Made by a program: the position numbers and the translations under genes
Assembly (NCBI GenBank): GCA_028712225.1
Contig: JAQTQN010000008.1
Coordinates: forward strand, 1 to 36,115
Source: Methylobacter sp.
GTDB lineage: Bacteria > Pseudomonadota > Gammaproteobacteria > Methylococcales > Methylomonadaceae
Reading direction: 5' to 3'
DNA length: 36,115 bases
Part shown: one piece after another, positions 1,894-10,110 of the stretch
Numbering within the stretch: the first letter of the stretch is position 1
Layout: every line of letters starts with the position of its first letter
Notes under the pieces: model-generated
What the model was told of the DNA's origin: nothing
What the model saw: the letters and a program-made list of their open reading frames with translations, nothing else
The model's database searches: none

Positions 1894-2271
1894 GTTCTTC
1901 CTCGATAGGGTTAGTGATCTGCGGACAATTTTACGCGAAGCACAACAAAAACAATAACATTTAAGCTGCAGGGTTAACCTTACCCAAGGCTATTTAGCTG
2001 TCAATGCAGATCAATCCAATCCAGTGCAATCGCCCTAACTGCCGCACAACAATAAGGCATTATTACACGCTATCATGCCTGCAAAATTGAACATAAATAA
2101 CTCATAAGTCATTGTAATTAAAAATAAAAGATCAGCACAACATGGCAATAGCTATCCTGGCATGACGATTGCTGAATTGATTATGGGAACAGCAAGTTCA
2201 TACCACTACACCCGAGCATTGCTGCAACCGAATCAGATCGAACACATTCACTCAAATTAGGAAGGTGGGTT
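1894..2271. other. Divergent intergenic region
   Basis: This 378-base AT-rich stretch separates the small exported protein gene (minus) from the membrane cytochrome gene (plus). It contains the sigma-54-like promoter at 2158-2173 and the plus-strand Shine-Dalgarno AGGAAGG at 2259-2265. I see no open reading frame, tRNA or long repeat in it. I could not define an enhancer-binding-protein site upstream of the sigma-54 box. Confidence 0.6.
2158..2173 (+). promoter_or_regulatory. Sigma-54 (RpoN) type -24/-12 promoter
   Basis: The sequence TGGCATGACGATTGCT matches the RpoN consensus TGGCAC-N5-TTGCW. The invariant GG and GC doublets are separated by exactly ten bases. It would start transcription near 2184-2186, giving a leader of about 87 bases before the ATG at 2272. 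Position and strand fit the downstream cytochrome gene, implying control by an ATP-dependent enhancer-binding activator. No such activator is encoded in the window. Confidence 0.65.
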
Positions 2272-3417
2272 ATGGAAAAACGTTGCTTAAGATTTCAAGA
2301 TATTTCAGTCAGCGAGAAGATGCTTTATTCGCTGTTTTTAATGACCATCGGCATCGGTTATTTGTTCGCGTTAACGCATATGTATTACACCCATCAAATG
2401 CGTGACGGTAAGCCCGGCATGTCCATTCAAGATGTGATGATTGCTTATTACGGATCTCAAGACCAAACCCGGCTGGGGTCTGCCATCAACGGTGGCCCAA
2501 TGGAGCCCAATCTAAAATCTGCCAATGACAAAGAAAAGATTCTGGTTTGGCTAAGCACCGGTAAATCAAAAACCGATTTTGAACAGGACATCGCCCCAAT
2601 CCTGACGAAGGACTGCACCCTTTGCCACAATGGTGAAACCAATCCCGGCTTGCCCAACTTGACTACCTACGAAGGTGTGATGGAAGTCGCTTCATCAAAA
2701 GCAGCATCGATACCTGGGCTGGTCAAAGTCTCCCACATACACCTATTTGGTATCGCTTTTATTCTATTGTTTGTAGGCAGAATATTTATTTATTGCCGGA
2801 TGAACGTCACTTTAAAACGCGTTATTGTGGTGATTCCGTTTTTATCGATGCTGATTGATACGCTGTCCTGGTTTGTCACCCGCAACAACCCAAGCTTTGC
2901 TTATGTTGTCGTGGCTTCCGGCGCGTTGATGGGATTATCGATGGGGGCACAAATTGTTATCAGCCTTTATCAAATGTGGGCCGAGACTTTTTATCCGCGC
3001 TTAAATCTTTCAACTAACCAGCAACTGCTGCTGAAAAAAGTTGTCGTATCATTTAAGCAATTAGCGTCACCTATAGTTTCGGCCAGCAAAGCCTATTTAC
3101 TGAAATTCGCACCAATCATTTGGCAGCAACTGCGCATAGCAGCGGTTCAAATCAGTCTGAGTTTGTATCACGCAGCTCGATACCAACTCCACCCCAAGCT
3201 GAGCTTATCTGCTGAGGATCAACTTAAAGCCCGGCAATACGCACAATCATTGACTGAATCAGGTTATAGCGTTTGGTTTGCCGGCAGTGGCTGGCTGGTG
3301 AAAGAATCGTTATTAACTTGGTTGTTTTTTAACTCGATTGACGCGCTTGAACTCTATATTCAACACTTACCTTATCAACAACCTGCTTCGGCTGAGCCTT
3401 CTGAATATAAGGTTTAA
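2272..3417 (+). CDS. Membrane protein with a single c-type haem motif
   Basis: The protein has 381 residues and no functional name I can defend. An N-terminal transmembrane helix at about 17-38 is followed by a roughly 115-residue loop carrying one CxxCH haem-attachment motif (CTLCH, 115-119) in a DIAPILTKDCTLCHNGE context typical of cytochrome c. Three further helices lie at about 152-173, 183-201 and 207-233; the second helix begins SHIHLFG, whose His residues (155, 157) are candidate haem or quinone-site ligands. A soluble or amphipathic tail of about 145 residues follows. Haem attachment would need the loop to be periplasmic. The start is fixed by the Shine-Dalgarno AGGAAGG seven bases upstream. 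It has its own sigma-54-like promoter and ends at a strong terminator, so it is probably monocistronic. An electron-transfer or redox-sensing role is inference. Confidence 0.8.
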   Translation: MEKRCLRFQDISVSEKMLYSLFLMTIGIGYLFALTHMYYTHQMRDGKPGMSIQDVMIAYYGSQDQTRLGSAINGGPMEPNLKSANDKEKILVWLSTGKSKTDFEQDIAPILTKDCTLCHNGETNPGLPNLTTYEGVMEVASSKAASIPGLVKVSHIHLFGIAFILLFVGRIFIYCRMNVTLKRVIVVIPFLSMLIDTLSWFVTRNNPSFAYVVVASGALMGLSMGAQIVISLYQMWAETFYPRLNLSTNQQLLLKKVVVSFKQLASPIVSASKAYLLKFAPIIWQQLRIAAVQISLSLYHAARYQLHPKLSLSAEDQLKARQYAQSLTESGYSVWFAGSGWLVKESLLTWLFFNSIDALELYIQHLPYQQPASAEPSEYKV

Positions 3418-3431
3418 TAGCTAATAAACTT

Positions 3432-3466
3432 AAAAGCCTCCCTCGTTTAACTCGAGGGAGGCTTTT
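3432..3466. terminator. Bidirectional terminator between convergent cytochrome genes
   Basis: A perfect 14-bp inverted repeat, AAAAGCCTCCCTCG with its complement, encloses a 7-base loop. Its A- and T-rich ends give a U-tract on either strand. It lies 14 bases after the stop of the plus-strand gene and 9 bases after the stop of the minus-strand gene, so it can serve both. Confidence 0.9.
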
Positions 3467-3475
3467 ATCGGTTTC

Positions 3476-4900
3476 CTAATGCTTTCTAGCTTTTTGCCAA
3501 TTGCGCCAAGTTTCCCAAAAATCTTCTTTCGCCCCCTTCAATAACTGCGGATTTTTGTCGGTTTCGACGGCGGCATAATTCATTAACGCCCCTTCCATGA
3601 AGGTACTGTAATCCAACGCTATCGCACCCGGCTCTTTGCTTTGCGGAACAGTGCCGGGCCGGTTTTGAAACCACTCATTCCACTCGACTGAGCCGGGGGT
3701 ATACATTGTCCAAGGCGTGGTCAACGGCATCTTTACCGGATAGAAAAACGTCAGCGCCTGGTACGATCCCGGATGAAAACTGGACGTGCCGTGACAGCTT
3801 AGGCAAGATGAACTGGCTAGTTTGGGAACAATCTTGCCATCGACATTAACATTGGTTTTAACGGCAATGTCGAACGGCCCCGACAAGCGACCGCCATACC
3901 CCAAGGTGACTTTTGAATACGCAGGCGCAGCCGGATTGACATAGGTTTGCTGCAACGCTTGATCCGGATGCTGTGCAGAATTAACGTCAGGATCGTTACC
4001 CCACATCGCCCCAAACGGCACCATTCGATCCCAGGCGTCGTTACCGGGCGCATCTTTATCGTAAACCAATGTGGTAAATACCCAGCCGGTTTCCGGAGAG
4101 GCAACGCTATCTTTGACGATAATGTCGAAGATACCGACATAAATATTCGTCACTACCGGCGGCTTACCGGGAATGGTGCCGTGTAAATCAAACGGCGGAC
4201 GATAAATTTGCCATGTCGCAGCACCCTGCATTACCGGCCATTGTTCCCCTGATGCAGTCACGCCGGCGGACTTGACGACCAACGATCCTTCATCAAATTG
4301 GGCGGCATTATTGTCCAACGTCGGCGCACACTCTTTCTGGCCTTGATGACATTTTTGCCAGACGCGCTGCAAGGTATTTGCGGCAACAGTGTTGTAATAG
4401 ATAGTGGCATGATTGCGAATATCGACTTTTAACCCGGATTCAGCATAGGTCGCTGCCGGTAGAATTTGTCCGGTATAAGTACCGTAAATTGCCTCGCGCC
4501 CTTCCCAGCCGGATTTTTCTATCGCCTCACCAGCCCATAACATGCTGTACCAATTGTGATCTGTGGAATTCCATTCTTTAGGCTTGGTTACCATCACACG
4601 CATATCCTTTGCGACTGCTTGCTTCAAGGCTTCGATATAGGCTTGAGCATTATCTTTGTTGAGCGGCTTACCATTCAGCACTTTGGTCCATGGTCGCTCC
4701 GACTGAGCTGTAGTTTGCGAATAATCATGATTGAAACGCCAAAGCGGCCCGTTATATTCTGCTTTAGACGGAATCTGGCCGTCATTGATTGCATACGGGT
4801 CGATGGTTGCAGCCGATTGCAAGGCCTGTGCAGCCCCGCTACTCAGCAGCAATAAGCTGGTGGTAAATATGCTTAATGGCTTGTTGTTTATAAACGGCAT
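3476..4900 (-). CDS. Exported c-type cytochrome-like protein of unknown function
   Basis: The protein has 474 residues from the ATG at 4898-4900. That start is chosen because AGGAG lies just upstream and residues 1-26 (MPFINNKPLSIFTTSLLLLS and on to AQA) form a good signal peptide. An in-frame extension to 4996 is possible, but it reads through a dispersed inverted repeat (peptide LAERSRSQ) and would spoil the signal. The mature protein is rich in Trp, Tyr and Pro. It has one CxxCH motif (CLSCH, 366-370, in SSSCLSCHGTSSFHPGS) near the C-terminus and a Cys pair near C184/C191. The size is far above a class I cytochrome c, and the large N-terminal part is unassigned. It is predicted to be periplasmic. 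It converges with the other single-haem gene across a shared terminator. A periplasmic electron-transfer or haem-enzyme role is inference. Confidence 0.75.
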   Translation of the reverse strand: MPFINNKPLSIFTTSLLLLSSGAAQALQSAATIDPYAINDGQIPSKAEYNGPLWRFNHDYSQTTAQSERPWTKVLNGKPLNKDNAQAYIEALKQAVAKDMRVMVTKPKEWNSTDHNWYSMLWAGEAIEKSGWEGREAIYGTYTGQILPAATYAESGLKVDIRNHATIYYNTVAANTLQRVWQKCHQGQKECAPTLDNNAAQFDEGSLVVKSAGVTASGEQWPVMQGAATWQIYRPPFDLHGTIPGKPPVVTNIYVGIFDIIVKDSVASPETGWVFTTLVYDKDAPGNDAWDRMVPFGAMWGNDPDVNSAQHPDQALQQTYVNPAAPAYSKVTLGYGGRLSGPFDIAVKTNVNVDGKIVPKLASSSCLSCHGTSSFHPGSYQALTFFYPVKMPLTTPWTMYTPGSVEWNEWFQNRPGTVPQSKEPGAIALDYSTFMEGALMNYAAVETDKNPQLLKGAKEDFWETWRNWQKARKH

Positions 4901-4918
4901 CAATAATCTCCTGTTATT

Positions 4919-5040: not shown

Positions 5041-8000
5041 TCAGACGACTATTTTTTGGATAATGCCGTTACGACCGTTTTCTTTAACTTGATAAAGCGC
5101 ATCGTCGGCAGTCTTGATTAACAAGGCCGGAGAACAGTGGTGATGGGGCATTGCAACGGCAGTGGCAATGCCAATACTGAGGGTCACAAATTCTGCTACT
5201 TGCGAACCTTGATGAGATATTTGCAAATCAAGCACTGCTTGCCTGATTAAATCAGCGACTTGTAACGCACCATTTTCATCGGTGTGCGGCATGATCACAG
5301 CAAACTCCTCGCCGCCATAGCGGGCTGCCAGATCGGTGGGACGCCGTAATGCGCTTGTAATCGCTTGAGCTACTTTTATTAAACAATCGTCACCGGCCTG
5401 ATGTCCGTAATGATCGTTATATTTTTTGAAGTAATCTATATCGCACAAAATCATTGCCAGCGCCGTTCCGTCTCGCGCCAAGCGCTGACATTCGATTTCC
5501 AGGTATTCATCGAAATGGCGGCGATTGCCGATATTGGTCAAACCATCAACCATCACCAAACGCTCTAATTCTTCATTTGCTATTTGCAAATTGCGTTCTG
5601 CGACCCGGCGCTCCCAGTTTTCACTCTGCAAGCGTTCATTGAGTGCTTGGATAGTGGTGTTATGGGCTTCCAGTTCGGAGTTTTTTTCTTCTAAAACGAC
5701 TTTTTGGGTTTCGATATGCTTAGTTCGCTCAGTAACTTTATCTTCCAGCAGCTGGTAGCCAAGCGCGTTATCTATAGAAATAGCGATTTGGCCGCTCAAA
5801 TGTTGCAACAAAAACACACGCTCGCCTGTAAACACCGCATCTGCGGCATTATTTTCCAAATAAAGAACACCTTGCAGCTCGCCCCCCAACAGCAAAGGCG
5901 CGCACAGCACCGAGCGCACCTGACGTTCGACAATATCTTTATCTCTGCCGTAGACAGCGCTATGTCCGGCATTTTCCAACACTACGGATTCTTTACTACG
6001 GGAAACGTAATTGATGACGCTTTGCGGTAGGTCGCCAGCAGCCGATAACAGCAAGCCCTGCATCACTGCCACCTGTTCTACATCAATCTGGGCTTCGGCC
6101 TGAATCAACAAGCCGCCGTGTTCTTGCAGTAATAATACGCCGCGCTGCGCGCCGGCATTCTCAATCACAATATGCATCAAGGTTTGCAATAACTGCGGCA
6201 AGCGTCGTTCTGCAGCAATAGTTTCTGCGGCTTTAATGAGCGTGACGGTATCTAACGCCAACTTTGTGCCTTGTCGTGTCGAAACCGTATGATTACTTAG
6301 ACGTATCGCGCCACCTCGTTTTGGTACGATCTTAAACTGCTGTAAATAACCGGTTGCTCCCCAGCGCCGATAACAATAAACAGCCTCTTCGAAATGAAAT
6401 TTTGCCAGGCGTTCTTGACCTAAATCAGCATGCAACCGCGCGGCCAGTTCATTTGCCAAGGCCTCCAAATGTAATTGCCCGTTGGCTTCGGCATCGTTGG
6501 CGGCATGCTGATAAGCCAGTAACGCCAGCTCCGGATGATGACGTAATCGCTGAATTTCTCCTGCCAGCAAATGGTAGCGACTCTGAAAATTTTGCGGACA
6601 CCGCCGCGCCCAGTGGCGCAATTTTTTTTCGGTGCGCTGAATCTTACCCAGGGCTTTATAACGATCGAGCCGCGCCAGCCCTGGATAAAGCTTGGCTAAA
6701 ATCAACGCGTAATAAAAATGATGTTCAACGCCATGTAACATGCCCGCCGAATCTTTCAAATAACCTGCGGAAAGCCGACTCAACTTTAATGCACTGTCAT
6801 ACTCACCCCACAAATATAAGCAGTGCATTTTATTGACGAAATAATAGTGCGCAAAATGCCGTGTACCATAACCAGACAATGACTCAACAAACGCCGCCTC
6901 ATCGAAATCCGTATCGATATTACCGCGCAAAGTTTGTATCGCCTGACGAACACCCAACAGCACACCCAAATGCTCCTGGCTATCGATGCGTTTAAGCGTT
7001 GTCAGCATCCCATCGGTATCGTGCCAAAGTTTATCCAGCGGCACTCCACGCATTAACTGGCTTTGCGCCAGTCCACAGCAAGCGCATCCGCTATGAAACC
7101 AATCGCTACTTTCCAGCCCGGATTCAAGCGCCGCGCGCCAATAGTTTTCGGTATCTGCCGCCGGATGCGTCCAGGAATGGGCAAAATAACCGTAAACAAA
7201 GTTGACTTCTGCCCGTTGCCGCTGATTAGCGAACCTATCTAACAGCCCTAAAGATAAGCGCCCATAATCGTAGCCCGCCTGATGATTACCCAACACACCG
7301 CCGAGAAAAATCACCCCGAACACCATGTAGCCGATCACCGCTTCGGCGTTATTGCCGTATTGCAGACAGCGACTGACCTGTTTAACCGATATGGCCGCAC
7401 ACAGCTCAGGCTGTAACTGATAGGCCACCTTTAATGTGGCCGACAATAATCGAATGGCAATTTCCATCCTGACATCGGTTACCGCAGGCAGCTTAAGCAA
7501 ATCATCGACATTAAAACGTCGCAAGCGATACTTCAGATACAGGAAATCGGCAACAAAAGCCAAGCGATTAAATCGCGCCGGCAAATCAATACCGAACAGT
7601 GCCGACGCTTGTCGACTGACTTGATAAGCCTGTTCAAATTGCGCCAAATCCGCATAAAACTGGATCATTAGTTCAAAGATGCGTGCTTTTTCCAGATCGG
7701 ATTTAGCAAGGGTCACGGCTTGCTCGAAAAACTGTTTGGCTTCTTGATGATAACCACAAAGATGTTCGCATTCGGCGCGATGGCGATAGATAGCCGCCAG
7801 ACCGCCGGCTTGATGCAGCGATTCTTCCAACAACTCAGACGCTTGTCGTAAATAAGGCAACGCCTGTTCAAACGCGCCGCTGTGCTTAGACCATAAACCC
7901 AGTTTAAAGTTATCAGCCCCCAAACTGCGTCGTTCTTCAGCGTCGACCATCAAAACCAGCGCCGCGTTAAGATGCTCAACCGCTTGCACCAATGTTTGCT

Positions 8001-10110
8001 TATCTTGATTATCGCGCGCTATGTTTACCCAATAACGGCCAATTTGCAGCCGGTTGGCTAGTAACTCATGTTCTGCCAACAACGAATGCGCGGCTTGCTG
8101 CACACGGTCATGCGCAAATATATAGTCAATTCGTTCTGTTGCGCCATTGCCGGAACGCTTTATTAGTAAGCCAAGTTTTTCGGCAATCGCCAAATTCTTT
8201 TGCGCAGAAAGATGTTCGCCGAATGCGGCTGCAATCAGCTCAGCATTGAAGCTCGTACCGATGCAGGCTGCCAGTTTCAACAATTCACGCACCGGCTGAG
8301 CTAACGCAGTTATCCGCAATAACATAAAGTCGATGACATTGTCGCTGATAGCGACGGCGCGAATTTTGTCGTTATCGTAGCGCCACTTGCCCGTCGCAGC
8401 ATGGAATCTCAAAATGCCGTCTTGCTGCAACTCTCGTAAATATTGAATGAAAAAAAACGGATTGCCGTGCGTCTTATCGACTATCGCACCGCAAAGCTCG
8501 ATGGCCGAGCCCTCCTCCAGCACCATTGAATCGTTAATCATCTCCACTAAAGCCGATACGGGTAACGGGGCCAGTTCGACGGTTTCGACTTGACCACTGT
8601 CCACGCATAACTTGCTCATCATTTGCGGCAAATCAACAATCTCATCATCCCGGTAGGCGATGATCAACAACAGGTGTTTAACATCTAACAACATCTGTTG
8701 CAGCCACTCAAACAAGGCGGGATCGGCCCACTGTATATCGTCCAAGAACACACACAACGGCCGGTCCGGCCGACAAAATGCTTGTACGAAGCGGACCCAC
8801 AACCGCAATAATCGAGTTTTAGTCTCAGCGGTCGGCAATTTGGGCAACGCCGGCTGCGGCCCCAATAGAATTTCAAGCTCTGGGATAAGTTCAATGATAG
8901 GCTGAGCTTCCGCCCCTAACTGATCGTGTAAACGTTGTTGCCACATAGCCAAGGTTGACGCATCTTCACCCAGCAATTGCTGCAACAAGCCTGTAAAGGC
9001 GGCATGAAATATTTGTGCGGGCGGATTGACTTTATATTGATCGCATTTTGCGGTAATGAAATAACAGTCGACCGACAAAATCTCCCGACTAAAGGCATCG
9101 AATAATCGCGATTTACCGACACCCGAGCGCCCAGAGACCCGACATAAAACCGCGTTGTTACGCCGTGACCGCTCAAACGCCCCTGCCAATTGCGCAAGCT
9201 CGGCCTCACGTCCATATATCCGCCGGGACATTTTTAATAGAGCATGCCCTGATTCAGTCAGCGACGGCCTGTCAACAGGCTCCCCTGTCATCAATATTTG
9301 GTAACAGATTTTTATATCCGACAGCAATTCGGTAGCGGTCGCATAGCGCTCACTGGGATCTTTCGCCAGCATTTTACTGATGATACCCACCACAATTTCC
9401 GGGACATGCGGGCAAAATTCCCGTGGATCGGGAATGCTTTGGGCGATATGTCTATGGATCAAGCCAATAGAATCGGACGATGTAAACGGAGCACGCCCAG
9501 TCAATAACTCAAAAAACGTCAACCCTAACGCATAAATATCAGCTCTGCCATCGATGCCGCGATTCATCCGCCCGCTTTGTTCTGGGGCCAGGTAATCGAT
9601 GTCTCGTGCCGACACTGCATCGTGTTCTGCGTCGTTGCCACATTGCGAGTTAGCCATTGCATGGCTAAAGCCAATCAGCTTCAGCTGATAAGACTCCCGC
9701 TCTATCAAAATATTATCGGGATTAAGATTGCCATGAACGATGCCTCTTTCATGTATCGCCGCAATGATTTCAGCCAACAGCATCACCAATCGGCAAGCCT
9801 CTTGAGAGGACAACATGCGCCCAGCCGCATAATCGCGTAACGTTTTTCCTGGAAAATATTCGCGGACCAAAAGCAAGCGTCTGCCGTGATCCTCCAAGCC
9901 CAAGGCTTGGATAACGGCCGGCATAGCCAATTGCTGCAAGATTTGATGTTCGGAACGAAAATTGGCGAGCATCGCCGGACTAGGATGGCTGTCAGCCAAA
10001 TACTTAACCACTACTTCGCGGCGATTCTGTAAACACTCGCCGCGATAGAGCCGATACCAGCCTCCATCCTGGATGCACTCGTTGATTTGATAACGATCTA
10101 TTCCTAACAA
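5041..10110 (-). CDS. Pseudokinase-AAA ATPase-TPR-GAF diguanylate cyclase
   Basis: This giant signalling protein has 1689 residues. Order: protein-kinase-like domain (about 7-270); AAA/STAND-type ATPase (about 298-600) with Walker A GRSGVGKS at 327-334 and Walker B VFLDD at 454-458; a long helical TPR-like region (about 650-1260); GAF domain (about 1285-1430); coiled coil (about 1430-1520); and a C-terminal GGDEF domain. The cyclase motif is GGEEF (1599-1603), with an RPTD inhibitory I-site five residues before it, so it should make c-di-GMP from GTP and be product-inhibited. The kinase head keeps Lys36 and the APE motif (175-177), but has HGN (126-128) for HRD and GFS (147-149) for DFG, suggesting a non-catalytic scaffold. 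Related proteins often end in a histidine kinase instead. The start is TTG at 10110; an in-frame TGA lies shortly upstream and no ATG or GTG intervenes. Cytoplasmic, with no membrane segment. Confidence 0.9.
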   Translation of the reverse strand: MLGIDRYQINECIQDGGWYRLYRGECLQNRREVVVKYLADSHPSPAMLANFRSEHQILQQLAMPAVIQALGLEDHGRRLLLVREYFPGKTLRDYAAGRMLSSQEACRLVMLLAEIIAAIHERGIVHGNLNPDNILIERESYQLKLIGFSHAMANSQCGNDAEHDAVSARDIDYLAPEQSGRMNRGIDGRADIYALGLTFFELLTGRAPFTSSDSIGLIHRHIAQSIPDPREFCPHVPEIVVGIISKMLAKDPSERYATATELLSDIKICYQILMTGEPVDRPSLTESGHALLKMSRRIYGREAELAQLAGAFERSRRNNAVLCRVSGRSGVGKSRLFDAFSREILSVDCYFITAKCDQYKVNPPAQIFHAAFTGLLQQLLGEDASTLAMWQQRLHDQLGAEAQPIIELIPELEILLGPQPALPKLPTAETKTRLLRLWVRFVQAFCRPDRPLCVFLDDIQWADPALFEWLQQMLLDVKHLLLIIAYRDDEIVDLPQMMSKLCVDSGQVETVELAPLPVSALVEMINDSMVLEEGSAIELCGAIVDKTHGNPFFFIQYLRELQQDGILRFHAATGKWRYDNDKIRAVAISDNVIDFMLLRITALAQPVRELLKLAACIGTSFNAELIAAAFGEHLSAQKNLAIAEKLGLLIKRSGNGATERIDYIFAHDRVQQAAHSLLAEHELLANRLQIGRYWVNIARDNQDKQTLVQAVEHLNAALVLMVDAEERRSLGADNFKLGLWSKHSGAFEQALPYLRQASELLEESLHQAGGLAAIYRHRAECEHLCGYHQEAKQFFEQAVTLAKSDLEKARIFELMIQFYADLAQFEQAYQVSRQASALFGIDLPARFNRLAFVADFLYLKYRLRRFNVDDLLKLPAVTDVRMEIAIRLLSATLKVAYQLQPELCAAISVKQVSRCLQYGNNAEAVIGYMVFGVIFLGGVLGNHQAGYDYGRLSLGLLDRFANQRQRAEVNFVYGYFAHSWTHPAADTENYWRAALESGLESSDWFHSGCACCGLAQSQLMRGVPLDKLWHDTDGMLTTLKRIDSQEHLGVLLGVRQAIQTLRGNIDTDFDEAAFVESLSGYGTRHFAHYYFVNKMHCLYLWGEYDSALKLSRLSAGYLKDSAGMLHGVEHHFYYALILAKLYPGLARLDRYKALGKIQRTEKKLRHWARRCPQNFQSRYHLLAGEIQRLRHHPELALLAYQHAANDAEANGQLHLEALANELAARLHADLGQERLAKFHFEEAVYCYRRWGATGYLQQFKIVPKRGGAIRLSNHTVSTRQGTKLALDTVTLIKAAETIAAERRLPQLLQTLMHIVIENAGAQRGVLLLQEHGGLLIQAEAQIDVEQVAVMQGLLLSAAGDLPQSVINYVSRSKESVVLENAGHSAVYGRDKDIVERQVRSVLCAPLLLGGELQGVLYLENNAADAVFTGERVFLLQHLSGQIAISIDNALGYQLLEDKVTERTKHIETQKVVLEEKNSELEAHNTTIQALNERLQSENWERRVAERNLQIANEELERLVMVDGLTNIGNRRHFDEYLEIECQRLARDGTALAMILCDIDYFKKYNDHYGHQAGDDCLIKVAQAITSALRRPTDLAARYGGEEFAVIMPHTDENGALQVADLIRQAVLDLQISHQGSQVAEFVTLSIGIATAVAMPHHHCSPALLIKTADDALYQVKENGRNGIIQKIVV

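Follow-up and report, generated by a model that had tools for sequence, protein, structure and literature searches.

The window analysed here, a 36,115-nucleotide stretch of DNA from the 83.7% complete, metagenome-assembled genome of a methanotroph of the order Methylococcales, carries a gene that is probably induced by nitrogen limitation through NtrC and sigma-54 and that would encode an electron-relaying cytochrome c of the inner membrane (Table 1). In the proposed mechanism, phosphorylated NtrC would bind two tandem upstream sites and loop to sigma-54 polymerase at the –24/–12 box, so that the gene would be switched on under nitrogen limitation. The product would be an inner-membrane cytochrome c that holds haem c on the periplasmic side, in the loop joining helices 1 and 2, and has a small alpha/beta domain in its cytoplasmic tail. 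It would pass electrons between quinones, or some other donor in the membrane, and a periplasmic cytochrome c, where both quinol and the direction of transfer are presumed. This role is modelled on relatives that adjoin mtrAB and Cyc2-like genes; the present cytochrome would have been uncoupled from such outer-membrane conduits and put under nitrogen control. On balance, we favor electron relay as the main function. The needs it may serve in nitrogen starvation are surplus reductant, respiratory protection, or electrons for nitrogen fixation, nitrate assimilation or mineral export.

Table 1. Features of the cytochrome gene and its surroundings (window coordinates).
Feature	Position	Strand	Basis or remark
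NtrC-like site 1, CAATCCAATCCAGTGCA	2012–2028	+	glnK-amtB position weight matrix (PWM); left half degenerate
NtrC-like site 2, CGCACAACAATAAGGCA	2043–2059	+	glnK-amtB PWM; right half degenerate
Conserved CATTGTAATTA element between NtrC sites and –24 box	2110–2120	+	aligned orthologues
Sigma-54 –24/–12 box, CTGGCATGACGATTGCT	2157–2173	+	consensus match, conservation in orthologues
Expected transcription start	2184–2186	+	inferred from –12 GC position
Ribosome binding site, ggaaggt	2260–2266	+	sequence; kept in orthologues
Gene for 381-aa four-helix (4-TM) monohaem cytochrome c	2272–3417	+	ATG at 2272
CTLCH haem c motif, residues 115–119, TM1–TM2 loop	2614–2628	+	sequence; periplasmic by positive-inside rule
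SHIHLFG, residues 154–160, near TM2 start	2731–2751	+	family alignment
Long linker helix of tail, residues 248–306	3013–3189	+	AlphaFold2 model
Alpha-beta-beta-beta-alpha domain of tail, residues 314–364	3211–3363	+	AlphaFold2 model and family alignment; pLDDT ~90
Stem-loop between convergent genes	3431–3467	.	likely terminator common to both genes

The cytochrome, its tail domain and its family

The initial annotation had described the product as a four-helix membrane protein with a single CxxCH motif, and an AlphaFold2 model of the 381 residues, built with a 32-sequence alignment, indeed contained four helices (residues 13–40, 147–172, 179–205 and 207–240), with the one haem motif situated between the first two. 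By the positive-inside rule, with which the charges of the N-terminus, the helix 2–3 loop and the tail are consistent, both termini are predicted to be cytoplasmic and the haem loop periplasmic. The CxxCH motif is invariant in the family alignment, as are S154, H155, H157, L158, F159 and G160, and haem is presumed to be attached. The tail (residues 241–381), consisting of a long linker helix followed by a compact domain, is a genuine domain and is conserved. Neither Pfam nor NCBIfam returned a family above cut-off for the protein, a sequence search of solved structures returned nothing beyond short haem-motif matches, and Foldseek gave no match at E < 0.001. Two structural matches were set aside as weak and not indicative of kinship, i.e., a helical-bundle match to mPGES-1 (helices 2–4; Z 6.9, 93 residues, 2.6 Å) and a match of the tail to T7 Gp1.2 (Z 4.8, 59 residues, 2.6 Å).

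The gene would form a single-gene transcription unit. Its convergent neighbor on the minus strand (window positions 3479–4906) encodes a probably secreted protein of ~476 aa that matches nothing in Pfam or NCBIfam and has a single CxxCH close to the C-terminal end (SCLSCHGTSSFHPG).

Of 61 close genomes, 52 gave family matches, a count that includes weak hits to a short paralogue of 165 aa; across the class, 58 of the 369 sampled genomes did so. One branch comprises 241-aa proteins encoded directly after mtrA (with 10 CxxCH motifs) and mtrB in many Methylococcales; the family profile recovers these mtr-linked members at E ~1e-75. A Methylobacter locus for extracellular electron transfer (EET) has been reported to hold an inner-membrane monohaem cytochrome c with four helices and no signal peptide, Methylobacter_1_02048 (PMC13322032), and the mtr-linked branch fits this protein, the identity resting on gene order. 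Neither mtrA nor mtrB lies beside the cytochrome gene in the window, which marks the present cytochrome as a paralogue and not a component of an EET locus.

A second branch, of ~245 aa, shares ~60% identity with the window protein over residues 3–240. Genes that often adjoin these paralogues carry the sequence AxPxFARQT, with the FA positions varying in some, which corresponds to the Cyc2 haem motif AxPxFAR[Q/K][T/Y] that precedes CxxCH (PMC8406198); a model of the Cyc2-like neighbor had 16 strands at low confidence (mean pLDDT 56). Example loci in which 4-TM cytochromes occur with mtrA-mtrB or with Cyc2-like cytochrome-porin genes are L157–L181 (e.g., L161:763-1488), L048:6989-9185, L051:4499-6732 and L057:4968-7080. 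That one 4-TM family is associated with both kinds of genes suggests that two different outer-membrane conduits have an inner-membrane partner of the same type.

More distant members were also encountered. A 308-aa paralogue with ~36% identity and a C-terminal extension of its own (L062:3739-4665, source genome C196, and relatives) is carried by most of the genomes sampled from the same family, where its neighborhoods are unrelated. The gene for a membrane protein of 165 aa, whose similarity to helices 2–4 of this family is weak (L063:300-797 with 797-1342, source genome C150; L050:4959-5998), adjoins one for a small predicted secreted protein, and the neighbor in L050 matches FMN_bind.

In a midpoint-rooted tree, of which the bootstrap values are not fully settled, the tail-bearing proteins fell, inside the ~60% group, into a single clade (100/100) that also holds two proteins which lost the tail. 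Nested in this tail clade was a subclade (98/97) of the members under putative sigma-54/NtrC control, including L037, which has no box. L037 and L007 lack the tail domain while their membrane part is kept, and L007 has in-frame stops. This nesting suggests that a Cyc2-type membrane cytochrome probably gained first the cytoplasmic domain and then nitrogen control. Eight genomes from g1 and g22 with the NtrC-type gene were searched for Cyc2, and seven yielded none; neither MtrB nor Cyc2 was found in G002 and G144 (96 and 99% complete), where that gene is present. The NtrC type thus seems to be independent of both outer-membrane conduits and, with g1 and g22 mostly devoid of Cyc2, the neighbors of other branches may mislead about its function.

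The tail domain could give the protein a role other than that of a plain relay: either sensing, based on redox or haem, or the docking of a cytosolic enzyme of nitrogen assimilation (e.g., nitrate reductase). This is rather unlikely: the domain is conserved in a clade mostly without a Cyc2 link and found partly in or near nrt and urease genes, but no signalling domain or partner was identified, and L037 and L007 dispense with the domain yet keep the membrane part. In a specific form, which we consider quite improbable, a transmembrane haem protein induced by nitrogen starvation would sense the periplasmic or quinone redox state and signal to a cytosolic nitrogen-assimilation partner via the alpha-beta-beta-beta-alpha domain. 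If true, this would constitute a direct molecular link from respiratory redox state to nitrogen assimilation in methanotrophs.

The occurrence of relatives in mtrAB loci (cf. PMC13322032) could also mean that the cytochrome serves extracellular electron transfer as its inner-membrane component, through which surplus methane-oxidation electrons would be exported when nitrogen limits growth; ferrihydrite-dependent methanotrophic nitrogen fixation has been reported (PMC10960957) and provides context for such a role. However, G002 and G144 have the NtrC-type gene without any sign of MtrB or Cyc2, and this proposal is unlikely. The preferred reading remains that of an inner-membrane electron relay under nitrogen control, and its regulatory half rests on the promoter region.

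The sigma-54 box and the upstream NtrC-like sites

A –24/–12 element with GG-N10-GC geometry, some 98 bases before the start codon, had been proposed from the window alone, and both particulars were confirmed: GG is found at 2159–2160 and GC at 2171–2172, and exactly 98 bases separate the box from the ATG. The box deviates from YTGGCACGN4TTGCW at one position. By itself it proves nothing, since loose matches to the simple consensus (up to three mismatches) occur at the chance rate in the window (198 vs. 194.7 expected) and another one-mismatch box is located within the gene at 5041–10110. The tighter pattern TGGCAYRN4TTGCW occurred seven times in the 3.1-Mb genome vs. once for a reversed control; nifH and an nrtA-like gene are among those with another match in their promoters, which indicates that the organism uses such boxes. 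RpoN is encoded in the genome (PF04552, E 1.5e-66).

What makes the box convincing is its conservation. The initial annotation had named its presence upstream of homologues as a check, and the box was kept, with one or two mismatches, in eight of eight examined orthologues from genera g1 and g22 (i.e., the window, L004, L005, L006, L084, L085, L036 and L039), at –81 to –115 relative to the ATG; in the orthologue alignment, the spacer of the box and other upstream DNA diverge. The orthologues L037/L089 and L088 are without a box of their own, and the tail-less shorter paralogues checked (L008–L032) had no box with up to two mismatches within up to 400 bases upstream. The sigma-54 promoter is thus almost certainly real.

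Further sigma-54-like elements were noticed elsewhere in the source genome. A strong –24/–12 box precedes a methyltransferase-like and carbonic-anhydrase-like gene pair (L042:1500-3016 with L073:1063-2622, C132), which is divergent from an enhancer-binding protein gene with an N-terminal part of no assignment. Two more strong boxes precede genes for predicted exported proteins (L040:1500-3016 and L041; C4 and C127), and the one in L040, the case tested, is without NtrC sites.

The orthologue alignment contained two more conserved upstream blocks, GTGCA and (T)GCACAAC, lying ~14 bases apart, which we read as the inner halves of two candidate 17-base NtrC sites. These tandem sites had escaped the initial annotation. 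When the promoters were scanned with an NtrC matrix trained solely on the glnK-amtB promoters of relatives, and hence on independent genes, a candidate pair with sites 30–31 bp apart appeared in eight of eight promoters, 101–115 bp before the box. Pair scores ranged from 17.5 (the window) to 26.6, and a clean background of 59,901 segments held none that scored as high as the lowest of the eight. In all five promoters so tested, a spacing of 30–31 outperformed every other spacing from 18 to 59. The same two-site arrangement is present in the organism's own nrtA-like promoter (L044) and in the glnK-amtB promoters of relatives. Two cruder searches were abandoned: an NtrC palindrome pattern with three mismatches was too loose for genome-wide use, and a UAS-like 16-mer by itself (31 genome matches with up to two mismatches vs. 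nine in the control) was set aside as evidence. The conserved CATTGTAATTA element, on its other strand, differs from the IHF consensus at two positions, which is a weak test.

Gene neighborhoods in relatives touch on nitrogen as well. The genus-g8 orthologue L088 (locus L182) follows nrtA, nrtB and nrtCD and is oriented like them, and this nrtA has a one-mismatch box; co-transcription is uncertain because of a 345-base gap. The stretch between these nrt genes and the cytochrome gene (L182:9347-9692, genome G224) contains palindromic MITE-like ATTCCGGC repeats. Another orthologue (L038/L184) adjoins urease genes and has a near-perfect NtrC palindrome, TGCACAAGAATGGTGCA, with a three-mismatch box.

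With candidate NtrC sites in eight promoters, and with both RpoN and NtrC (TIGR01818, 731 bits vs. a cut-off of 559) encoded in the genome, alongside NifA, the cytochrome promoter is most likely a nitrogen-limitation promoter. The earlier suggestion that RpoN control reflects some specific signal is thereby supported and, judging from the tandem sites, narrowed to nitrogen limitation. NtrC itself is very probably the activator. Nevertheless, both sites are imperfect half-palindromes in most orthologues, the window included, and the best single-site scores in orthologues were 10–15 vs. 15–20 in the training sites, so that a different enhancer-binding protein is possible. Under that proposal the sigma-54 promoter would be real and answer to a signal other than nitrogen, through another of the roughly dozen activators in the genome, which encodes 12–13 clear Sigma54_activat domains. 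The degeneracy of the sites relative to glnK-type NtrC sites speaks for it, but in half-site sequence, in the 30–31 bp between sites and in their distance from –24 the arrangement agrees with that of NtrC promoters within the order, and relatives have nrt and urease neighbors, which renders another activator improbable. That the box is a chance match, with the gene read from an unrecognised sigma-70 promoter, is hardly credible: one of the two one-mismatch boxes in the window does lie inside a gene, but eight orthologues keep the box together with the upstream sites, and no forward sigma-70-like promoter was found from position 1894 to the cytochrome gene.

Significance and comparison with known systems

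NtrC/sigma-54 promoters and 4-TM monohaem cytochromes are each already known. In the open-licence literature searched, we found no report of NtrC/sigma-54 control of such a cytochrome, and no description of the combination of the two with an added cytoplasmic domain. The window gene had initially been taken as a possible undescribed redox module; this is only partly right, as a distant branch of the family has been described (PMC13322032). Nitrogen starvation and electron transfer at the membrane seem to be linked in this methanotroph, so that the nitrogen regulon would reach beyond transport and assimilation into membrane electron transfer. A gene under NtrC/sigma-54 control would offer a named, deletable handle on the question of where methane electrons go under nitrogen limitation. 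Moreover, the mtr-linked, Cyc2-linked and stand-alone 4-TM cytochromes are united here as one family, for which the Pfam and NCBIfam copies searched hold no entry.

Among known systems, NapC-type quinol dehydrogenases such as CymA, which has a single helix, would occupy the same proposed place between membrane quinol and periplasmic cytochrome. The likeness is one of functional analogy alone, as CymA is tetrahaem (PMC13322032) whereas the present cytochrome is monohaem. With Methylobacter_1_02048 it shares four transmembrane helices, one CxxCH, the lack of a signal peptide and the Methylococcales background; in contrast, the mtr-linked branch is a separate, distant clade (~32–35% identity) without the tail, and no nitrogen control is described for that locus (PMC13322032). 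The ~245-aa Cyc2-adjacent cytochromes have the same invariant CxxCH and SHIHLFG motifs, but are without tail and sigma-54 box and often adjoin a Cyc2-like gene.

For the promoter, the closest parallels are the glnK-amtB and nrtA promoters of Methylococcales as well as glnAp2 of E. coli and further NtrC/sigma-54 promoters, where two tandem NtrC sites lie about three helical turns apart upstream of a –24/–12 box. The window promoter has this same layout, whereas its candidate sites are weaker half-palindromes and its target is a membrane cytochrome gene.
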